This document shows, piece by piece, positions 7,108-38,608 of a stretch of 43,619 bases of DNA. The first letter of the stretch is position 1. Every line of letters starts with the position of its first letter. The DNA comes from a bacterium. GTDB lineage: Bacteria; Actinomycetota; Acidimicrobiia; Spongiisociales; ZC4RG35. The translations under genes were made by a program, and so were the position numbers. The DNA is taken from NCBI GenBank assembly GCA_028819345.1, contig JAPPLW010000031.1:1-43619 (forward strand), read 5' to 3'. The notes under the pieces were generated by a model, which worked only from the letters and a program-made list of their open reading frames with translations, was not told the DNA's origin and did not search any database.

Positions 7108-7875
7108 TTAAGGCCCTTGGACGACGGCTGCGATTTCGTCGGCTATCTTAGAAATGCTGAAGTCACTGGTCTTAAGGGCAACCTTGTCAGCTAATGAAGG
7201 GCTTTGGCTAACTACTTCGTCCTTGGAGATCTCGTGCCAAATGGGGAGAAGCACCTGCTTTGCGCTGACGGCCATTGTTACCAGGCCATCCAGTTCATAT
7301 TGGGGCCAACCCTTTGCGAAGAAGGAATTGGATAAGACGACTAGACCGAATTTACTATGGGCGATTCCACGATCGATTCGCTGTCGGAGACTGTCACCAA
7401 TTCTGAGTTCAAATTCGTCGTACCACACGGACAGCCCTCTCTCTTGCAGGGCATGGGCCAGGGGCCGTACGACTGCCTCTTTGTCTTCGGCGGCGTGCGA
7501 CACGAAGACATCAAACTCACGGTTGTCTTGGCTGATCTCTGCCATGTTGCTGGCGATCTCGTTAAGGTCAGGCCGACGCTCTCTGATGGGAGGGAGCGGT
7601 TGCAGCGTAGAACGGTTGATGACCCGGAAGGAGGCACTTGTTGAGCCGCGGAGCCCTTGCATGTCTACAGCAGCGTGCCAGTGCCCAGCCGATGGGATTG
7701 GAATACGCACGGGGGAACGTTTGGCAAGGCCACCGAGACACCTATGACCCTCCCCCCGCTTGTACCGGTGGAAGTTAGATGAGTCCATTAACCGGACATT
7801 GGCGCCCCTCGACAGCGTTACCTCGAGGACATCGCCTCGCTGGCGCCAGCCAAGGTCGGAGTGCAGAAATCTCAT
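7108..7875 (-). CDS. DUF1883-TIR domain protein, probable antiphage effector
   Basis: A protein of about 255 residues. The first roughly 95 residues (MRFLHSDLGW…, NVRLMDSSNFHRY, KRSPVRIPIP, GHWHAAVDMQGLRG) match the DUF1883 family. Residues from about 120 form a TIR domain (FDVFVSHAAEDK, LSVWYDEFEL, VVLSNSFFAKGW). The Glu in WPQYELDGL at about residue 192 is in the place of the catalytic Glu of NAD-cleaving TIR domains. I chose the ATG at 7875 because DUF1883 proteins usually begin at this point; a start at 7893 adds six residues. Known DUF1883-TIR proteins are found near defence genes. By family, activity would be NAD+ hydrolysis or signal production, but this is not shown here. The gene converges on the UvrD-like helicase gene, 53 bp apart. 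Confidence 0.8.
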   Translation of the reverse strand: MRFLHSDLGWRQRGDVLEVTLSRGANVRLMDSSNFHRYKRGEGHRCLGGLAKRSPVRIPIPSAGHWHAAVDMQGLRGSTSASFRVINRSTLQPLPPIRERRPDLNEIASNMAEISQDNREFDVFVSHAAEDKEAVVRPLAHALQERGLSVWYDEFELRIGDSLRQRIDRGIAHSKFGLVVLSNSFFAKGWPQYELDGLVTMAVSAKQVLLPIWHEISKDEVVSQSPSLADKVALKTSDFSISKIADEIAAVVQGP

Positions 7876-7997
7876 GCGGAACAGTGTACGCACTCTGCCG
7901 TGTCATTTGCGAACACATGTTCGAGGCGTTCTGCGCTAAAGTGGGGATGGATGGCCTTCGGTAGGGCCTCATTAGGGTGCATCCCTCCGGCCCTTGT

Positions 7998-8792
7998 TTA
8001 TCTCCGTAACTTGTCGATGTCGAGTGTTATCTCCAGTGCCGCCGCGAAGACGGCGGTATTGGCTGCGTCGAGACGCGCTTGTTCCCTGGGTGTTAGGGGA
8101 TCCAGGAAGCTGCGGTCGGCGGTGAGCTGATCCCACACCACTAGGAGGGCGGTGGCAGCAAAGCCGAAGTGTTTTGCTACGGTGAAGAGTGTGGCGGCTT
8201 CCATGTCAACTGATCCGTGGCCTCGCTCTCGCCACTCCTCAACCATGGCCCCGCTCTGAGCGAAGATGGAACTCCAGGTCAGATGCAATGAGTCGGCAGT
8301 TCTGATCCCTCTGCTTTCCAAGGCGGCCCTTCCCAGTGCAGTTAAATGCGGATCCGAGCGGACGATGCTGGTGTCGGCGGCGACTGTCTGGTACAGGTGC
8401 GCCACGCCTTCCCGAGCCACGGCCCGCGAAGGCATGACCACATCGCCGGTGGCCAGCCCTGCATCGAGAGCGCCGCAGGTGCCGATCATCACCATCCGGG
8501 GTGTTCCTAGGACTCCGAACAGGTGTGCCAACTCGACGGCTCTGGGTGCTCCGTATACGCAGGAGTAGACGACCGGCGTTCCCTGCCAGAAGCCGTAGAA
8601 CATGTCGGGGAAGGCGAGTTCCCGTACGTCGTCCAGGTAGCTCAGGCGCCATTCTGTGCGTTGGGCTCGCCACCAGGAACCTTCCATGATCACTGCTTTC
8701 GGGATGTCTGCGGCGTCCATTCCGAGCGCGTTCAGCCATTCTTCTCGGCCGAGGTCCATCACGGCTCTGTGTTTGGGTTGGCGATCGTTCAT
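7998..8792 (-). CDS. Nucleoside phosphorylase family protein
   Basis: A 264-residue protein of the purine/uridine phosphorylase (PNP_UDP_1) fold. MIGTCGALDAGLATGDVV is the phosphate-binding glycine region and SVDMEAATLF is the nucleoside-binding 'MExA' motif near the C-terminus. Members convert a nucleoside plus phosphate into a base and sugar 1-phosphate, or hydrolyse nucleosides. The exact substrate cannot be read from sequence. The ATG (8790-8792) overlaps the TGA of the upstream MFS gene (8789-8791), so it is translationally coupled and is the last gene of the long minus-strand operon. The neighbouring nucleoside hydrolase and sugar enzymes support a role in using nucleoside-derived sugar. 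Confidence 0.75.
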   Translation of the reverse strand: MNDRQPKHRAVMDLGREEWLNALGMDAADIPKAVIMEGSWWRAQRTEWRLSYLDDVRELAFPDMFYGFWQGTPVVYSCVYGAPRAVELAHLFGVLGTPRMVMIGTCGALDAGLATGDVVMPSRAVAREGVAHLYQTVAADTSIVRSDPHLTALGRAALESRGIRTADSLHLTWSSIFAQSGAMVEEWRERGHGSVDMEAATLFTVAKHFGFAATALLVVWDQLTADRSFLDPLTPREQARLDAANTAVFAAALEITLDIDKLRR

Positions 8793-10015
8793 CGGCCGAG
8801 TCTCAATTCGTGTAGGCGGGATCGTGTCCATATGTACCAGCCGATGATCCAGATTGCACCTGCCAGGACGGATCCGGCCAGGAATAGGAACACCCCGTCC
8901 CAGGCGTCCTGGTCGACGAGCCTTCCCACGATCGGTGATCCTGCGCCGCCGCCCAGGTTGAAACCCAGCGAATAGATACCGCTGACCAACGCCACGCCTG
9001 TGGGAGAGGTCATCCTGGGAAACAGGCTGAGCACGATGGAGGATGACGCGCCGACCAAGGCGGTGGCTAAAGCTACGGTGGCGAATCCCGCCAGCAGACC
9101 GGATGCCTGGCTGACCATCGCCAGTGCCGCTGCGGTGGCTCCCAGCACCAGGGCGCCCCTCTGGGCGGCGCCCGGACCGCGGGAGTATCGAAACCAGCGC
9201 CCGATGGCCAGGATGGCCCCGATGGCTATGGCCGGCATGGCGGCGGAGAGTAGTCCGGAACGGCCCACCGCCTGGTTGTGCACCTCTACGAAGTAGGCAG
9301 GTGTCCACACCACCAGCGCGACGAACGCGGCACCCAAGGCCACCGCCGGGGGGAGGAGTCCTAACGCTCGGGCGATCGAGGCACGCGGGCGGTTGGCATC
9401 CGATGACGGTTGGATCGGATCGCGCACTCCGATCCACCAGGCGACGCCGGCCGGAATCAGAACGATGCCGGCGGCCATGAACACGGCTGCGACCCCGCCC
9501 TGTTCGACGATGAAGCCCCCCAGGGCGAAGGTGAGAGCGGTCCCGGCTACGAAGGAGGAACCGAACGAGGAGATGATCCGCCCTGCTCCTTTCTCGGATA
9601 CCCAGCGGCCTATTGCTCCCATGATTGGTGTCCATCCCATGGCCTGGAAGATGCCGTTGGCCGACCAGATGACCAGCGATAGGACGAAGTTCTCGATGGT
9701 CAGGATGAAGAGGACGTTCATCAGCCCGCTCCCCACCAGGCCCAGTCCGACCAGGAGGCGTGCGCCGATCCGGTCGGCCAGGATCCCTACCGGGAGCGCC
9801 GACAGCGAGTACACCCAGAAGAACCCGGCCGCCAGAGCGCCGATGCGAATGGCGTCGAGTCCCTGTTCCTCCCCGAGTCCGGGGACTGCAACAGAGAAGT
9901 TGACCCTCCCCATGTAGTAAAGGGCGTACACCGACCATCCGGCGACGATCAGGCCCCAGCGGGTGTCGTTGCCGGGCGTGGAGATGGACCCACCGGAAGG
10001 ACCGGAGCGGGCCAA
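8789..10015 (-). CDS. Major facilitator superfamily transporter
   Basis: A 408-residue integral membrane protein with about 12 hydrophobic segments. The N-terminal half has the pattern GWSVYALYYMGRVNFSVAVP and a loop 2-3 motif (GILADRIGARLLVGLGL) like the OPA/anion-cation symporter branch of the MFS, which carries organic anions and phosphorylated sugars. The first codon is a TTG at 10015 preceded by AGGGA. No ATG is available before the first membrane helix. The gene begins 7 bp after the ABC ATPase gene and ends in a 4-base overlap with the nucleoside phosphorylase gene. The substrate is probably related to the pathway of this operon, but this is only contextual. Confidence 0.8.
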   Translation of the reverse strand: MARSGPSGGSISTPGNDTRWGLIVAGWSVYALYYMGRVNFSVAVPGLGEEQGLDAIRIGALAAGFFWVYSLSALPVGILADRIGARLLVGLGLVGSGLMNVLFILTIENFVLSLVIWSANGIFQAMGWTPIMGAIGRWVSEKGAGRIISSFGSSFVAGTALTFALGGFIVEQGGVAAVFMAAGIVLIPAGVAWWIGVRDPIQPSSDANRPRASIARALGLLPPAVALGAAFVALVVWTPAYFVEVHNQAVGRSGLLSAAMPAIAIGAILAIGRWFRYSRGPGAAQRGALVLGATAAALAMVSQASGLLAGFATVALATALVGASSSIVLSLFPRMTSPTGVALVSGIYSLGFNLGGGAGSPIVGRLVDQDAWDGVFLFLAGSVLAGAIWIIGWYIWTRSRLHELRLGR

Positions 10016-30263: not shown

Positions 30264-31493
30264 TCAGTCCTCTCGGGGCCTGCGACGGCGCCGGTGGATG
30301 AGATTGGCGACCAGGGCCGAACTGCGGACCGGGATGGGGGCGAAGACCCTCTGCAGGGCGAGGGGGATGTGGGGCCGCGCCAGGAAGCGGCGGATGATGT
30401 AGATGACGAACAGGCCGTGGAAGACCGCCAGGGCCAACCACATCCCGTCAGGTCCCATGATTGTCATCATTCCGGCGGTCAGCACCGGACCGGCAATGGC
30501 GCCTGCTCCCCTGAAGGTGACCAGGGCGGTGGCCCCGGGGATGAGGTGGTCGACATCCAGGAGGTCGTTCATGTGGCTCATCGAGAGTGCGTACACCGGG
30601 AAGGTGACGGCCCCGTAGATCATCATGGCGGCGGTGAGCAATTCCGGTCCAGCGGTGGCGTTGGACATCAGGGCTGCCATCAGGGTGGACCCGAAGGCCA
30701 CGACCAGGATGACCCGTCGGCGGGGGAACCGGTCGGAGAGGCGTCCGAGCGGGATCGTGTTGGCCACCGCTCCGAACAGGAGGGCCCCCATCATCCATCC
30801 CACCTGGGCGTTGGTGAGGCCCACCTGGGTGGCGTACACGGGTCCCATGGTGAGGACCGAACTGTGGGTGAGGCCCGCCACCGTGGCGCCGACGATGGCG
30901 AGGGGAGCGGCCCGGTACACCGCGGCGATGTCGGCCTTGTGCCGTTGGCGGATCCTCGGGGGGTTGGTGCGGGTGAGCGACAGCGGCACCAGCGATAGCG
31001 AGAAGAGCACCGAAACCAGGATGAACAGGCCGAAGCCGCCCGGATTGTCGACCCCGATCAGGAGTTGTCCGAAGGTGGCGCCTCCCATTCCCATCACCAT
31101 GTAGATGGAGAGGACCCGACCCCGGTTGCGGTTGTCGGCGACCTCGTTCAGCCAGCTTTCGGCGGTGATGAAGATGCCCGACATGCAGAACCCCGACAGA
31201 AGCCGCAGGACCAGCCATGCGACCGGGTTCAGATACAGGGCGTGCAAGAGCGCTGCGGCGGACGCCAGAGAAGCCAGCCCGGCGAACACCCTGACATGGC
31301 CGACATGGGCCAGCATGGCGCCGATGGTCCGGCCTCCCACCAGGAACCCCGCGTAGTAGCCGGCCAGGGCGATCCCGATCGCCAGGGAGGAGAAGTCCTC
31401 GATGGTGGAGCGGACCCCCAGGAGGGAAGTGACCAGGCCGTTGCCGATCCCCAGGATGCACATCGACACGAACAGCGCCGCCAGTTGTCTCAT
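30264..31493 (-). CDS. MFS transporter, paralogue 1 (YcaD-like)
   Basis: A 409-residue membrane protein with about 12 transmembrane segments. Motifs include LLGVRSTIEDFSSLAIG, GFCMSGIFITAESWLNE and GRLSDRFPRRRVILVV (the MFS motif between the central helices). The 'ESWLN' block is characteristic of the YcaD-like branch. It is closely similar along its whole length to the next MFS gene, sharing for example MSHMNDLL, FRRFLARPHIPLALQRVF-type endings and GPDGMW. Substrate unknown. ATG at 31493; no strong ribosome site. Confidence 0.85.
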   Translation of the reverse strand: MRQLAALFVSMCILGIGNGLVTSLLGVRSTIEDFSSLAIGIALAGYYAGFLVGGRTIGAMLAHVGHVRVFAGLASLASAAALLHALYLNPVAWLVLRLLSGFCMSGIFITAESWLNEVADNRNRGRVLSIYMVMGMGGATFGQLLIGVDNPGGFGLFILVSVLFSLSLVPLSLTRTNPPRIRQRHKADIAAVYRAAPLAIVGATVAGLTHSSVLTMGPVYATQVGLTNAQVGWMMGALLFGAVANTIPLGRLSDRFPRRRVILVVAFGSTLMAALMSNATAGPELLTAAMMIYGAVTFPVYALSMSHMNDLLDVDHLIPGATALVTFRGAGAIAGPVLTAGMMTIMGPDGMWLALAVFHGLFVIYIIRRFLARPHIPLALQRVFAPIPVRSSALVANLIHRRRRRPRED

Positions 31494-31746: not shown

Positions 31747-31763
31747 AGCGGGATAATCCCGCT
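31747..31763 (-). terminator. Short palindrome at the end of MFS paralogue 2
   Basis: AGCGGGAT-A-ATCCCGCT is a perfect inverted repeat with 8-bp arms that overlaps the stop codon of the second MFS gene. As RNA it can form a six-pair GC-rich stem with a five-base loop followed by TTAAAG. It could be a weak terminator or an operator. Confidence 0.35.
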
Positions 31764-33039
31764 ATTCCCAGTGCACTCTCCTGGGCTGCACCACCGGGGG
31801 ATGCCCGCCGCCCTGCCTGTTCTTCTTCCTCTTCCTGCTTCCCCTGATCAGGTAGGCCACCCGCGCCGAACTGCGCATGGTGATGGGCACGAACACCCTC
31901 TGGAGGGCAAGGGGGATGTGGGGCCGCCTGAGGAACCGGTTGACGATGTAGACGGCGAACAGGCTGTGCACGACCGCCAGGGACATCCACATCCCGTCCG
32001 GTCCCAGGAGGGTCATCATTGCCGAGATCATGACCGGCCCGGCGATGGCGCCGAGGGCCATGAAGGTGACCAGGGCGGCCATGCCCGGGACGAACTGAGA
32101 CCGTTCCAGCAGGTCGTTCATGTGGCTCATCGCCAGGGCGTACACCGGGAAGATCAAGGCGCCGTACGCCAACATGACTCCCGCCAGCAAGGCAGGGTCG
32201 ACCGGCCCGATCGACATGATCAGGCACAGTCCGATGGCGCCGATGGTTACGGCCAGGATCACCCTTCTCCGGGGGATGCGGTCCGACAGCCGTCCCAGGG
32301 GGATCATCGCCACCGAGCCGAGCATCAGGGCGCTCATCATCCATCCCACCTCGCTGCTGGTGAGGCCCACCTCCGTGCCGTACACCGGGCCCATGGTGAG
32401 GACCGCCCCCTGGGTGAATCCCGCCGCGGCGGCCCCCACGATGGCCAGCGGGGCGGCTCCGTACACCGCTCTGATGTCGGCTTTCTTCCGCGGCGGTATC
32501 TCGGGCGGATCGATGCGGGTCAGCGACAGCGGCACCAGGGAAAACGAGAACACCATCGAGGCCAGGATGAAGAGGGTGAACCCTCCGGGATCGGCGAATC
32601 CGATGAGAAGCTGGCCCGCCGCGGCGCCCCCCATGCCCATCATCATGTAGATCCCCAGGATCCGCCCGCGGTTGTGGTTGTTGACCTGGTTGTTCAGCCA
32701 ACTGTCGGCGGTGATGTAGATCCCCGACATGCAGAACCCGGCCGCCAACCGCAGGATGAACCAAACGGGAGGGATCAAGAGGAGCGAATGCGCCAGTATG
32801 ACCGCGGAGATCAGCGCTGCCAGGCCGGCGAACACCCGGATGTGGCCCACGTTGGCCAGGAGGTTGCCGACCAACCGGCTTCCGGCCAGGAAGCCGACGT
32901 AGAAACCCGACAGGGCCAGTCCCGCCTCCAGTTCGGAGAAGCCCTCGATGGTGGAGCGGATGCCCAACAGCGAGGTGCCCAAGCCGTTGCCGAGGCCGAG
33001 AAGGCACATCGACAGGAAGAGCGCGGTCAGATGCTTCAT
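31762..33039 (-). CDS. MFS transporter, paralogue 2 (YcaD-like)
   Basis: A protein of about 425 residues with 12 predicted transmembrane segments, aligned end to end with the neighbouring MFS carrier and evidently its tandem duplicate (LFLSMCLLGLGNGLGTSLLG, GFCMSGIYITADSWLNNQ, GRLSDRIPRRRVIL, MSHMNDLLE). The C-terminus is longer and ends in a basic tail. The ATG at 33039 follows AGGAGC; the frame to 33087 has no better start. It lies downstream of the CaiD-like gene and may carry a related quaternary amine or organic acid, but the substrate is not known. Confidence 0.85.
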   Translation of the reverse strand: MKHLTALFLSMCLLGLGNGLGTSLLGIRSTIEGFSELEAGLALSGFYVGFLAGSRLVGNLLANVGHIRVFAGLAALISAVILAHSLLLIPPVWFILRLAAGFCMSGIYITADSWLNNQVNNHNRGRILGIYMMMGMGGAAAGQLLIGFADPGGFTLFILASMVFSFSLVPLSLTRIDPPEIPPRKKADIRAVYGAAPLAIVGAAAAGFTQGAVLTMGPVYGTEVGLTSSEVGWMMSALMLGSVAMIPLGRLSDRIPRRRVILAVTIGAIGLCLIMSIGPVDPALLAGVMLAYGALIFPVYALAMSHMNDLLERSQFVPGMAALVTFMALGAIAGPVMISAMMTLLGPDGMWMSLAVVHSLFAVYIVNRFLRRPHIPLALQRVFVPITMRSSARVAYLIRGSRKRKKNRQGGGHPPVVQPRRVHWE

Positions 33040-33251
33040 GGTGGAAGAGCTCCTATGTGAGGGGCGGCCATCGAGGCCTCGGGTCAAGACTTCCCGGACC
33101 GGCTGTGCGAACGATCTTCGGAAATGTGGAGCGCCGGTCCATCAAAACCAATCAGTCACCCGAATTCTACATGATCTGCTACCCATCCCAGGCGGGGATT
33201 TGCGGAGTACGGACCGGAGGTCCCGGGGTCCTGTCGTGCCTGGTAGACGGG

Positions 33252-34034: not shown

Positions 34035-34109
34035 AGTCGATGCAGTTTAAGGGTGTGCCCGGATACCGGTCGGTTTCAACCTGCGGTTTGGGCAGTCACG
34101 CAGAAGAGA

Positions 34110-34139
34110 GGAGGCCCCGCCTGGAAAGACGGGGCCTCC
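34110..34139 (-). terminator. Second terminator hairpin after the betaine importer operon
   Basis: A 10-bp GC-rich stem (GGAGGCCCCG / CGGGGCCTCC) with a 10-base loop, followed on the minus strand by TCTCTTCT. It is the distal of two hairpins between the binding-protein gene and caiD. Confidence 0.75.
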
Positions 34140-34153
34140 TTGCAGAAAGCGAA

Positions 34154-34183
34154 GGATGAGAGCCCCTTCCGGAGCTCTCATCC
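34154..34183 (-). terminator. First terminator hairpin after the betaine importer operon
   Basis: A perfect 10-bp stem (GGATGAGAGC / GCTCTCATCC) with a 10-base loop, followed on the minus strand by TTCGCTTTCT. It starts 12 bp after the stop of the tandem binding protein. Confidence 0.75.
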
Positions 34184-34195
34184 ATCATGGTTTGG

Positions 34196-36391
34196 TTAGC
34201 CGACCAGACGGGCGGCGGCGAGCCAGGCGTCGACCTGGTCGCGGTTGGCTGCGATCCACTCGTCAGCGTGCCGCTTGACGTCGTCCTCGGTGTTCTCGCC
34301 GAGGCTGTAGGTGACGTTCTGGAGGGTCACGTCAACCGGGTTGATCGTGAACAACTCGAGCAACCGGGCGGCGGCCGGGTTGGCGGCCAGGAAGTCGTTG
34401 TTCCCGGTGGCGCGAATGTCAGCCGCGTCCCAACCCAGGTTGCAGGGGTCGGTGGTGCACTGGTTACCGATCGACTTGGGACCTTCGATCTGGGTGTCGG
34501 AGATCGGGTCGTCGTGGATGGAGAGCCACACCGAGTTGTCGCCGGGGCGGAGGTCGCCAACGTAGTGGCTGGGCGCCCAGGTGTAAACCAGGTACGGCTC
34601 GCCGGCGGCGTCGCGGGCGATCGCGTCGGCGATCATGGCGTCATAGCCGCCGATGTCGAACTGCTCGACGTTCTCCCAACCGGCATTGGCGATCCACGAG
34701 TCGATGTTGACCCGGCAACCCCAGCCTTCGGGACAGCCCATTATCTGGAGGACGCCGTCGCCAGGCGAGACATCTGCTGCCTCGTAGGCGGCGAACTGAG
34801 CGGGGTCGTTCAACAGGGCGTCGAGGGTGGTGACCCCGTTCGCCTCGGCGAATGCCTTGTTGGTGATCAGCCCCTGCACGCCTGAACGCGGCATCTCGTA
34901 ACCGAGGGTGGTCACGTGCTCTGAGACCAGGGAACCGTCGGGCATCTCACCGGCCAGGAACTGGTTGTGGTTGGGGAACCACGAGTTGACCCAGAAGTCG
35001 AACTCGCCGTTGGCCATCGCCACGAAGGCGTTGGACGGCGCCAGCTCGAGGTCGGCGGGGTCCGACACGTCATAGCCCAACTCGCCCAGCAGCGCCGCGA
35101 CAATCGCAGCCTGCATGTAGCCAGTGGACCAGTTAGCCCGCGCCATCGTCACCGCCACACCGTCACCAGGGGTCATGCTGATCGGCTGCTTGGCCTTTTC
35201 GAGCCATGCGTCGACCTGGTCGCGGTTCGCCTCGATCCATTCGGCGGCGTGCCGCTTGACGTCGTCCTCGGTGTTCTCGCCGAGGCTGTAGGTGACGTTC
35301 TGGAGGGTCACGTCAACCGGGTTGATCGTGAACAACTCGAGCAACCGGGCGGCGGCCGGGTTGGCGGCCAGGAAGTCGTTGTTCCCGGTGGCGCGAATGT
35401 CAGCCGCGTCCCAACCCAGGTTGCAGGGGTCGGTGGTGCACTGGTTACCGATCGACTTGGGACCTTCGATCTGGGTGTCGGAGATCGGGTCGTCGTGGAT
35501 GGAGAGCCACACCGAGTTGTCGCCGGGGCGGAGGTCGCCAACGTAGTGGCTGGGCGCCCAGGTGTAAACCAGGTACGGCTCGCCGGCGGCGTCGCGGGCG
35601 ATCGCGTCGGCGATCATGGCGTCATAGCCGCCGATGTCGAACTGCTCGACGTTCTCCCAACCGGCATTGGCGATCCACGAGTCGATGTTGACCCGGCAAC
35701 CCCAGCCTTCGGGACAGCCCATTATCTGGAGGACGCCGTCGCCAGGCGAGACATCTGCTGCCTCGTAGGCGGCGAACTGAGCGGGGTCGTTCAACAGGGC
35801 GTCGAGGGTGGTGACCCCGTTCGCCTCGGCGAATGCCTTGTTGGTGATCAGCCCCTGCACGCCTGAACGCGGCATCTCGTAACCGAGGGTGGTCACGTGC
35901 TCTGAGACCAGGGAACCGTCGGGCATCTCACCGGCCAGGAACTGGTTGTGGTTGGGGAACCACGAGTTGACCCAGAAGTCGAACTCGCCGTTGGCCATCG
36001 CCACGAAGGCGTTGGACGGCGCCAGCTCGAGGTCGGCGGGGTCCGACACGTCATAGCCCAACTCGCCCAGCAGCGCCGCGACAATCGCAGCCTGCATGTA
36101 GCCAGTGGACCAGTTAGCCCGCGCCATTGTCACCGACACACCGTCGCCCGGAAGGGCCATGTCGTCGGCCATTTCCGTGGGCTCTTCCGGCTCGTCCATT
36201 TCGTCATCCATGGCGTCTTCCGGCTCGTCCATTTCGTCATCCATGGCGTCGTCGGTCGTGTCGGCAGGAGCGGCGGTGGTAGCCGCGGGCTCCTCCGTCA
36301 CTGCATCGTCCCCGTCATCTCCGCATGCCGCCGCTAAGAGCGCCAGCACCGAAAGGACGGCGATCAGATGCCTGATATGTCTTTTTCTCAT
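34196..36391 (-). CDS. Tandem two-domain glycine betaine/carnitine-binding lipoprotein
   Basis: A 731-residue secreted lipoprotein (LALLAAACGDDGDD lipobox) with an acidic linker and then two copies of an OpuAC/ProX-type binding domain, each about 320 residues. The two copies are almost identical, with differences only at their edges (e.g. PGDGVSVTM vs PGDGVAVTM and the terminal WIEANRD vs WIAANRD). Trp-rich blocks such as ARANWSTGYMQ, FWVNSWFPNH and YTWAPSHYVG fit the aromatic cage that binds trimethylammonium groups. The start ATG 36391 has AAAAGGAG before it. Importers with two linked binding domains are known (e.g. GlnPQ), but near-identity here points to a very recent in-frame duplication. 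It would feed the permease and ATPase encoded upstream. Confidence 0.88.
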   Translation of the reverse strand: MRKRHIRHLIAVLSVLALLAAACGDDGDDAVTEEPAATTAAPADTTDDAMDDEMDEPEDAMDDEMDEPEEPTEMADDMALPGDGVSVTMARANWSTGYMQAAIVAALLGELGYDVSDPADLELAPSNAFVAMANGEFDFWVNSWFPNHNQFLAGEMPDGSLVSEHVTTLGYEMPRSGVQGLITNKAFAEANGVTTLDALLNDPAQFAAYEAADVSPGDGVLQIMGCPEGWGCRVNIDSWIANAGWENVEQFDIGGYDAMIADAIARDAAGEPYLVYTWAPSHYVGDLRPGDNSVWLSIHDDPISDTQIEGPKSIGNQCTTDPCNLGWDAADIRATGNNDFLAANPAAARLLELFTINPVDVTLQNVTYSLGENTEDDVKRHAAEWIEANRDQVDAWLEKAKQPISMTPGDGVAVTMARANWSTGYMQAAIVAALLGELGYDVSDPADLELAPSNAFVAMANGEFDFWVNSWFPNHNQFLAGEMPDGSLVSEHVTTLGYEMPRSGVQGLITNKAFAEANGVTTLDALLNDPAQFAAYEAADVSPGDGVLQIMGCPEGWGCRVNIDSWIANAGWENVEQFDIGGYDAMIADAIARDAAGEPYLVYTWAPSHYVGDLRPGDNSVWLSIHDDPISDTQIEGPKSIGNQCTTDPCNLGWDAADIRATGNNDFLAANPAAARLLELFTINPVDVTLQNVTYSLGENTEDDVKRHADEWIAANRDQVDAWLAAARLVG
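34266..35146. repeat. Direct repeat, copy encoding binding domain 2
   Basis: About 881 bp, visually identical to 35247-36127 at a constant offset of 981 bp. Weaker similarity extends past both ends, where the first mismatches are at 34265/35246 and 35147/36128. Confidence 0.9.
35247..36127. repeat. Direct repeat, copy encoding binding domain 1
   Basis: Partner of the repeat at 34266-35146. The duplication keeps the reading frame (981 bp = 327 codons), so the two copies code for one fused protein. Confidence 0.9.
36183..36248. repeat. 33-bp tandem repeat in the lipoprotein linker
   Basis: Two identical 33-bp units (36183-36215 and 36216-36248) encode two copies of the acidic 11-residue unit DAMDDEMDEPE in the linker between lipid anchor and binding domain 1. 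Confidence 0.85.
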
Positions 36392-36469: not shown

Positions 36470-38608
36470 TCATGTCGCTTCCGTGGCCATGGAGGTCTGA
36501 GGGTTCCCCTCTTGGGCCATCAACCCCGAATCGCTCGCGTACACCATGGACCGGCGGAACTCTTTCAGGACGCCTCGCGAGGAGATGAAGAGGAAGAACC
36601 CCGCCAGCAGGCACAGGAACGAGCCAAACCCACTGACGAAATTGGGATCGGAAGCGCGTACCAACGAGGCGATCCAACCGCCGGAGGCAAGCAGGACTCC
36701 CACCCCGACGGCCGACATAGCCACACTCCATATCCAGCGCCGCCGCTCCCCGCCGCCGAACACCCCGGCGGCCGGCAGGCTGAACAGGGCGCCCACCACT
36801 CCCAGCCACAGCGCCAGGCGTCCCAGGCCGGGTCCCTTCTGCTCGAAGCCGTCGGCGGCGATGGGGTTCTTACGTTGCGCCTCGGCCACCAGGGTGGCGA
36901 TCGATATGGCGTTCTGTCCCGCTTTGGAGGCGTCTTCTCGGGCCTCCTTCTCCAGTTCGTCGATCTCGGCCTGCAATTCGGGGGTGATCACCGACTGGGC
37001 GCGGGCGTCCACAAACCACGGTGACAGGCCGGCTACGGCGAGCAGGCCCACGATGGCCAGCGCGATGGCAATCCGGCTGAATGAGATGTTGATCCGCAGG
37101 GGACGGAGCGGGCTGTAGGGGGCAACCCGTATCCAGAGCGCCGACCCGATCACCGCGATCACCGCACCCGCCAGTGCCACCCAGGTACCGATCCCGTCCT
37201 GGTGGGACACCGCTTCGGGAGAGGGTCCGATCCACAGGTAGGAAACCGCCGATATCACCGCGCCCCCGGCGAACAGCAGCGCTCCATCGGCGCCGAACCA
37301 TCGAGCCCCCCGGCCGGGGCGGGTCAGGGTGGTAACAGCCGCGCCCAGCACCAGCAGGCTCATCGCCAAGACAGCGATCCCGAAGTAGCTTCCTCCCTCG
37401 GCCGCCAGTCCGCTGGCGCTGAGCCCGGCCAGGTCGAGGTCGGCGGAGCGGCTATAGCCGGAGATCAGCCCCGAGTCCAGGCTCCAGGGCAGGAATACAG
37501 AGACGATCCCGACAACCGCACCGACCAGGGCCACCAGCGCCCAGGTACGTTCCGAAACGCCGGCCGGGGCGGGTTTGCCCTCGGAGGCGTCCGGATCGCC
37601 GCCGCCTGATCCGGCAAGCAGGGCTTCGGGATCGCGCCGGTGCGCCCAGGCCCGGTAGATGCGGGTGAAGAGGTTGGCGCCCTCGCCGGACTCGGTCTGG
37701 GAGATACGGTCCAGCACCACCGCCACGATGAACAGGGCCAGACCCGCCGAAGTCGAGAGGGGAGTGTCGATGTTGATGACCGCCCGGAACACCAGGAGGC
37801 CGAGGCCGCTGGCGCCCATGATGGCGGCGATGCCGATCATCGAGATGGATAGCAGCAGGGTCTGGTTGAGCCCGGTCATTATGGCGGGCCGGGCCAGGGG
37901 AATCTGCACATCCAACAGCACCCTCCACTCCGAGGCCCCGTAGGCGCGGCTGGCCTCCACCACGTCCGCCGGGACCTGGCGGATTCCCAGGTTGGTCAGT
38001 CGTATCAAGGGGGGTATGGCGAACACCATCGTCACCATGGTGGCCGGCTCCGGGCCCAGCCCGAAGAAGAAGATGAACGGGATGATGTAGACGAAGGCGT
38101 GGACCACCTGCATGGCGTCGAGAGCCGGCCGCACCGCGTTCCAGACCCCGTCGACGCGTCCGCACAGCACGCCGAGGGGAATGCCGATGATGGCGCAGAT
38201 CACCACCGACACCACCACCAGACCGATGGTGACGACGGTCTCCTCCCAGAACTCGTTGCCCAACAGCCCGCAGAGCGCCAGCATCAACGCCAAGCCGACT
38301 CCGACCCTCAGATTGCGGGTCAGGGTGGCAACCACAAGCACGATGGCGCACACCAGCATCCAGGGCATGTCGGTCAGTTCCCACCAGGGGTGGTACTCGG
38401 GACTGACGACGAAGTTCTGGAACAGGAACGAAAAAGGCCACTTGATGACGTCCAGCACGGTTTCCATATTGGCCACCACCCACGACACCATCTCGTCCAT
38501 CCAGAACCCGAAGGGGATCTCCCACTCGTCGAGTATCGCGTTCTCCCAGAATCGCAGGGGGGCTTCGACCTCCTCGGCCTGGGCGAGTATCGCTCTCACG
38601 GCGCTCAC
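36470..38608 (-). CDS. Betaine-type ABC permease with a large extra membrane domain
   Basis: A 712-residue protein. Residues from about 40 to 310 form a ProW/OpuAB-type permease with the EAA loop (VVEASRAYGASEWRVLLDVQ, then IPLARPAIMTG) and IGIPLGVLCGR. Ordinary ProW permeases end at this point. Here about 370 more residues follow, with roughly eight more hydrophobic segments and one polar helical loop (ITPELQAEIDELEKEAREDA…). I do not recognise this part. The GTG start (38606-38608) overlaps the ATPase stop by four bases (GTGA). It would form the channel for betaine or carnitine uptake; the role of the extra domain is unknown. Confidence 0.85.
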   Translation of the reverse strand: MSAVRAILAQAEEVEAPLRFWENAILDEWEIPFGFWMDEMVSWVVANMETVLDVIKWPFSFLFQNFVVSPEYHPWWELTDMPWMLVCAIVLVVATLTRNLRVGVGLALMLALCGLLGNEFWEETVVTIGLVVVSVVICAIIGIPLGVLCGRVDGVWNAVRPALDAMQVVHAFVYIIPFIFFFGLGPEPATMVTMVFAIPPLIRLTNLGIRQVPADVVEASRAYGASEWRVLLDVQIPLARPAIMTGLNQTLLLSISMIGIAAIMGASGLGLLVFRAVINIDTPLSTSAGLALFIVAVVLDRISQTESGEGANLFTRIYRAWAHRRDPEALLAGSGGGDPDASEGKPAPAGVSERTWALVALVGAVVGIVSVFLPWSLDSGLISGYSRSADLDLAGLSASGLAAEGGSYFGIAVLAMSLLVLGAAVTTLTRPGRGARWFGADGALLFAGGAVISAVSYLWIGPSPEAVSHQDGIGTWVALAGAVIAVIGSALWIRVAPYSPLRPLRINISFSRIAIALAIVGLLAVAGLSPWFVDARAQSVITPELQAEIDELEKEAREDASKAGQNAISIATLVAEAQRKNPIAADGFEQKGPGLGRLALWLGVVGALFSLPAAGVFGGGERRRWIWSVAMSAVGVGVLLASGGWIASLVRASDPNFVSGFGSFLCLLAGFFLFISSRGVLKEFRRSMVYASDSGLMAQEGNPQTSMATEAT

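Follow-up and report, generated by a model that had tools for sequence, protein, structure and literature searches.

The window analysed here, 43,619 nucleotides of a bacterial contig (JAPPLW010000031.1), carries a proX gene in which two near-identical ligand-binding domains stand in tandem in one reading frame, and the organism appears to capture the osmolyte glycine betaine via this protein of two near-identical halves. The tandem is real and old. Its history very probably consists of old in-frame duplication (one event or more; the linkers are of at least two types) and of concerted evolution that has recurred since, both betaine sites being kept. The earlier note, made from the letters of the window, had taken the duplication to be very recent; this dating fails, as congeners have the tandem with the same linker, related tandems are present in other families, and the edges of the repeat have diverged. 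The alternative offered in the same note, that the copies are kept uniform by gene conversion, matches the data, which are consistent with recombination by gene conversion or unequal crossing-over.

The tandem gene and its operon

A single open frame of 731 codons covers both copies (Table 1). The longest exact run between them is 881 bp at an offset of 981 bp (327 codons), exactly as first reported from the sequence; the window contains no N letters, and a chance origin of the 881-bp repeat is excluded. The repeat extends past this core in both directions, where it is alignable but diverged: the halves differ at 4 of the first 24 nt of the domain and at about two dozen of the last 70 nt. The N copy leads into the linker WLEKAKQPISMTPGDG, and the C copy terminates in WLAAARLVG followed by the stop codon. 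A fresh duplication would match to its junctions, so the divergence of the edges means that this one is not fresh; a core without differences between edges that have diverged is the hallmark of an older repeat that has undergone conversion.

Table 1. Features of the tandem proX locus in the window (genome G000).
Feature	Position	Strand	Evidence
Tandem proX gene, two OpuAC domains, 731 aa plus stop	34196..36391	-	ORF translation, self-comparison at offset, Pfam, NCBIfam
Signal sequence ending LAAAC, residues 1-23, predicted lipoprotein anchor	36323..36391	-	Read from sequence
Acidic low-complexity spacer, residues 24-80	36152..36322	-	Read from sequence
N-terminal ProX domain, residues 81-397	35201..36151	-	Self-comparison, Pfam, comparison with relatives
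Inter-domain linker EKAKQPISMT, residues 398-407, positionally conserved within genus	35171..35200	-	Alignment with relatives
C-terminal ProX domain, residues 408-731	34199..35170	-	Self-comparison, Pfam, match to E. coli ProX
Identical tract of 881 bp, N copy	35247..36127	-	Exact-run self-comparison
Identical tract of 881 bp, C copy	34266..35146	-	Exact-run self-comparison
proW-like permease, 712 aa, C-terminal membrane extension of about 400 aa	36470..38608	-	Pfam, NCBIfam, alignment
proV-like ATPase, 407 aa	38605..39828	-	Pfam, NCBIfam

The description of the product as an in-frame tandem of betaine-binding domains is borne out by family searches: Pfam OpuAC (PF04069) matches the protein in two stretches (198.8 bits; cut-off, 21.2), NCBIfam ProX (NF008334) matches it with 438 bits (cut-off, 215), and the only protein of solved structure found by sequence similarity is E. 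coli ProX (1r9l; E=1e-35), with nearly the entire domain aligned. Trp65, Trp140, and Trp188 of E. coli ProX, which form the betaine cage, all align to tryptophans in the C copy, and Cys136 and Cys142 are also retained; both copies have the cage tryptophans and the Cys pair, since these lie in the identical core. The ligand is probably glycine betaine, judging by this homology. Retention of the three cage tryptophans, together with purifying selection, suggests that both halves probably bind ligand, and the signal sequence with LAAAC makes a lipid anchor likely. An AlphaFold2 model of the full tandem, built on a three-row alignment, had a mean pLDDT of 41 and was discarded.

The tandem proX is the last gene of a proV–proW–proX operon, with proW and proV upstream and all three genes on one strand. 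ProX and ProW are separate open reading frames; the substrate-binding domains (SBDs) are thus not fused to the permease, unlike in importers of the GlnPQ/OpuA type. The order proV–proW–proX2 is preserved in G003, G004, G002, G045, G070, and G068, and the order proX2–proV–proW is found in G709 and G768. The extension of the ProW-like permease (36470-37678) falls in no Pfam family and is conserved in all relatives. The window also contains a tandem pair of MFS-type transporter genes (30264-31493 and 31762-33087, minus strand), which have 64% protein identity and are not homogenised.

Several further features were seen around the tandem in relatives. A single ProX paralogue lies downstream of the G003 tandem; it is absent in the window genome and G005, and no more than a short piece of it is present in G001 (L084:1170-1493; window 34035-34198). 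Downstream of the G068 tandem is a local expansion (L079:4932-8722) with a second ProW-like gene and three more ProX genes (82–88% DNA identity). Contigs L074 and L075 of G003 are 100% identical over at least 18.8 kb, tandem included; this is either a real large repeat or bin redundancy.

Distribution of the tandem within one class

Counting the genome of the window, eleven genomes carry tandem ProX genes, complete or nearly so; they belong to three families (f1, f6, and f103) of one class. The search covered 60 relatives, followed by 138 genomes belonging to the order. At the order level, tandem open reading frames were found in G003 (on two contigs), G004 (where a contig end cuts the gene), G045, G070, G075, and G068, and contigs of G001, G002, and G005 begin or end inside the gene. 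A junction query against 395 genomes of the class added G709 (single contig), and the family of G709 added tandems in G768 (single contig), G756, and G761. Across the phylum (396 genomes), only the window's own genome matched over the junction; thus, no tandem is seen outside the class at that sensitivity. Viral contigs yielded no relative of the tandem protein, and plasmids yielded just ordinary single ProX genes with less than 60% identity.

The copy number is two in all complete tandems, several contigs being broken inside the gene. Two linker types are present, a short one in f1 and f6 (period 981 or 984) and a long, proline-rich one in f103 (period 984 to 1056), which indicates that ProX domains were probably fused in frame at least twice within the class. 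The number of fusions could be higher, since the G068 copies cluster with single-domain genes, and not with the other f6 tandems, in the codon-alignment tree.

In f103, fusions of a ProX domain to a substrate-binding domain of the Bmp/PnrA-like type also occur, next to an RbsA-like ATPase (L119:4852-6078 and 7412-9523; L120:4214-5419 and 7122-8327; L118:1337-3562; L121:5381-7507). The ProX part of this fusion in L119 and L120 is 98–100% identical at the DNA level to the adjoining ProX gene (in L120, 1206 bp are identical), which suggests that homogenisation may reach across genes.

Concerted evolution of the halves

The longest exact runs between halves are 924 bp in G075, 923 bp in G045, 918 bp in G768, 905 bp in G068, 881 bp in G000, 873 bp in G003, 846 bp in G756, 809 bp in G709, 467 bp in G070, 215 bp in G004, and 131 bp in G761. 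In trees built from codon alignments (IQ-TREE and FastTree), the halves of the same genome are sisters in 10 of the 11 tandems, with bootstrap values of 90–100 (75 for the window genome); the exception is G761, whose halves form no clean pair. In four-way comparisons, the ratio of core sites tracking genome to those tracking position is 24:0 for G000/G003, 94:0 for G045/G075, 265:0 for G045/G068, 166:0 for G709/G768, and 52:0 for G756/G761. Sites that follow position sit at the two edges of the repeat (16 in G000/G003 and 21 in G045/G075), and the linker and C-terminus, unlike the core, track position. Values of dS between halves are 0.01–0.07 in the uniform tandems and 0.14–0.37 in G070, G004, and G761, and those between genomes are 0.12–1.25. 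A codon bootstrap of the between-genome minus within-genome distances gave 0/1000 for every tested pair except G000/G003 (19/1000; 0.019).

The uniform tract does not end at the same places in G000 and G003. Over the 48 bases immediately preceding the linker, the N copy of G003 is identical to both C copies, whereas the N copy of G000 still differs; at the opposite end, the first 79 nt of the domain have escaped conversion in G003, where the differences are mostly silent, whereas G000 is nearly uniform over them. Conversion therefore continued after the two genomes split, at least once in the direction from the C to the N copy. Uniformity is no general habit of these genomes, as in G003 the single ProX gene next downstream of the tandem has only 67% identity to its halves and the MFS-type pair of the window is likewise diverged.

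These patterns are best explained by a scheme in which a ligand-binding domain was duplicated in frame long ago, giving ProX two betaine sites on one lipid-anchored chain, which would serve the ProVW ABC importer. Homologous recombination between the direct copies would then re-copy one half onto the other, repeatedly and in each lineage, either by gene conversion or by unequal crossing-over via other copy numbers, so that the core would stay uniform within a genome while diverging between genomes. The linker and C-terminus would escape re-copying owing to their location, at the limit of the shared homology or outside it.

Independent recent in-frame duplications, each still fresh in its own lineage, could also account for the pairing of halves by genome in the trees and for the presence of at least two linker types, but this origin is very unlikely. 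The linker and the period are the same within f1 and within each of the other groups, and the positional edge sites described above are common to genomes, although fresh copies would be expected to be identical to their ends. This explanation is contradicted within the genus and within G045/G070/G075; the shared linker, period, and edge sites set independent duplication aside within groups, and this does not extend to f1/f6 versus f103. Halves that have clearly diverged, which the earlier note had suggested seeking in related genomes, were found in G004, G070, and G761 and also speak against fresh copies.

An assembly artefact, in which one copy was written twice or two separate genes were joined, is highly improbable. 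The locus is indeed hard to assemble, as short-read contigs of at least six relatives break inside the gene; such breaks are, however, expected from short-read assembly of a true 0.9-kb repeat. The same pattern is found in single contigs of 3.0, 3.6, and 3.8 Mb (G068, G709, and G768), which presumably derive from long reads given their contiguity, and the halves differ in G004 (40/717 nt), G070 (52/966), and G761 (9%), largely silently. Moreover, the edges of the window gene are not alike, and they agree with those of relatives. The concern about assembly error is thereby largely answered. Strong selection on the protein, acting alone and without recombination, fits the low dN throughout but has next to no chance of being the cause, since silent sites are uniform as well, despite large silent divergence between genomes.

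Possible function and comparison with known systems

Under the preferred reading of an old tandem that is repeatedly homogenised, the likely gain would be a larger number of capture sites per anchored protein beside one permease: with both domains on one lipid anchor next to the permease, and each able to load, the sites per anchor would be doubled. A near-perfect direct repeat of this size (about 0.9 kb) should be readily lost through recombination, and its persistence despite this expected loss suggests selection for two copies. Neighbouring domains of one protein normally diverge, whereas here the halves are near-identical and the two-copy state extends across genera, which suggests that selection continues to favour two equal binding domains. 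The tandem thus offers a natural system for asking whether doubled capture sites benefit an ABC importer. It also illustrates that the reasoning "identical, therefore recent" is unsafe, as dating by identity would misplace this tandem by whole genera.

It is possible, if rather doubtful, that the two equal domains cooperate in delivery beyond adding capture sites. The two SBDs of one OpuA importer, which bind betaine, are reported to cooperate and to experience each other at millimolar concentration (PMC11065425); in contrast, the tandem SBDs of GlnPQ, with a 14-aa linker between them, function for the most part independently (PMC8025302). A broader form of this idea, equally tentative, is that twin-site ProX lipoproteins arose at least twice in the class and have been maintained over very long times as two near-identical copies because the transport process requires a tethered pair of equal betaine domains (cooperative delivery as in OpuA being one example), with recombination keeping the halves functionally matched.

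No report of a tandem ProX/OpuAC protein was found in the open-access literature. E. coli ProX of the ProU (ProVWX) importer shares the domain family, the operon partners, the three cage tryptophans, and the Cys pair; however, it has one domain, whereas the window protein has two per chain and its permease partner is twice as long. GlnPQ of Lactococcus also carries two SBDs in tandem on one chain with a short linker (PMC8025302), but these are joined to the permease and have different specificities, whereas the window protein is a separately encoded, predicted lipoprotein whose near-identical domains belong to another family. OpuA of Lactococcus likewise has two betaine-binding domains per importer (PMC11065425); each is fused to its own permease subunit, whereas in the window protein one SBD is joined to the other.

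With respect to its evolution, the tandem resembles the long-lasting concerted evolution described for 26 prokaryotic genes (e.g., tuf, amo, and psb), in which paralogues stay more similar to each other inside a species than across species for long periods (PMC6053082). Those cases concern separate genes, with no transporter mentioned (PMC6053082), whereas the present case concerns two domains inside one gene. In Periscope proteins, too, adjacent globular domains share very high identity in both DNA and protein, although divergence of adjacent domains is the usual state and is thought to limit misfolding (PMC8201768). Periscope proteins, however, are surface stalks with a variable number of repeats, whereas the repeated unit here is a ligand-binding domain of about 320 aa, present in two copies per complete tandem.
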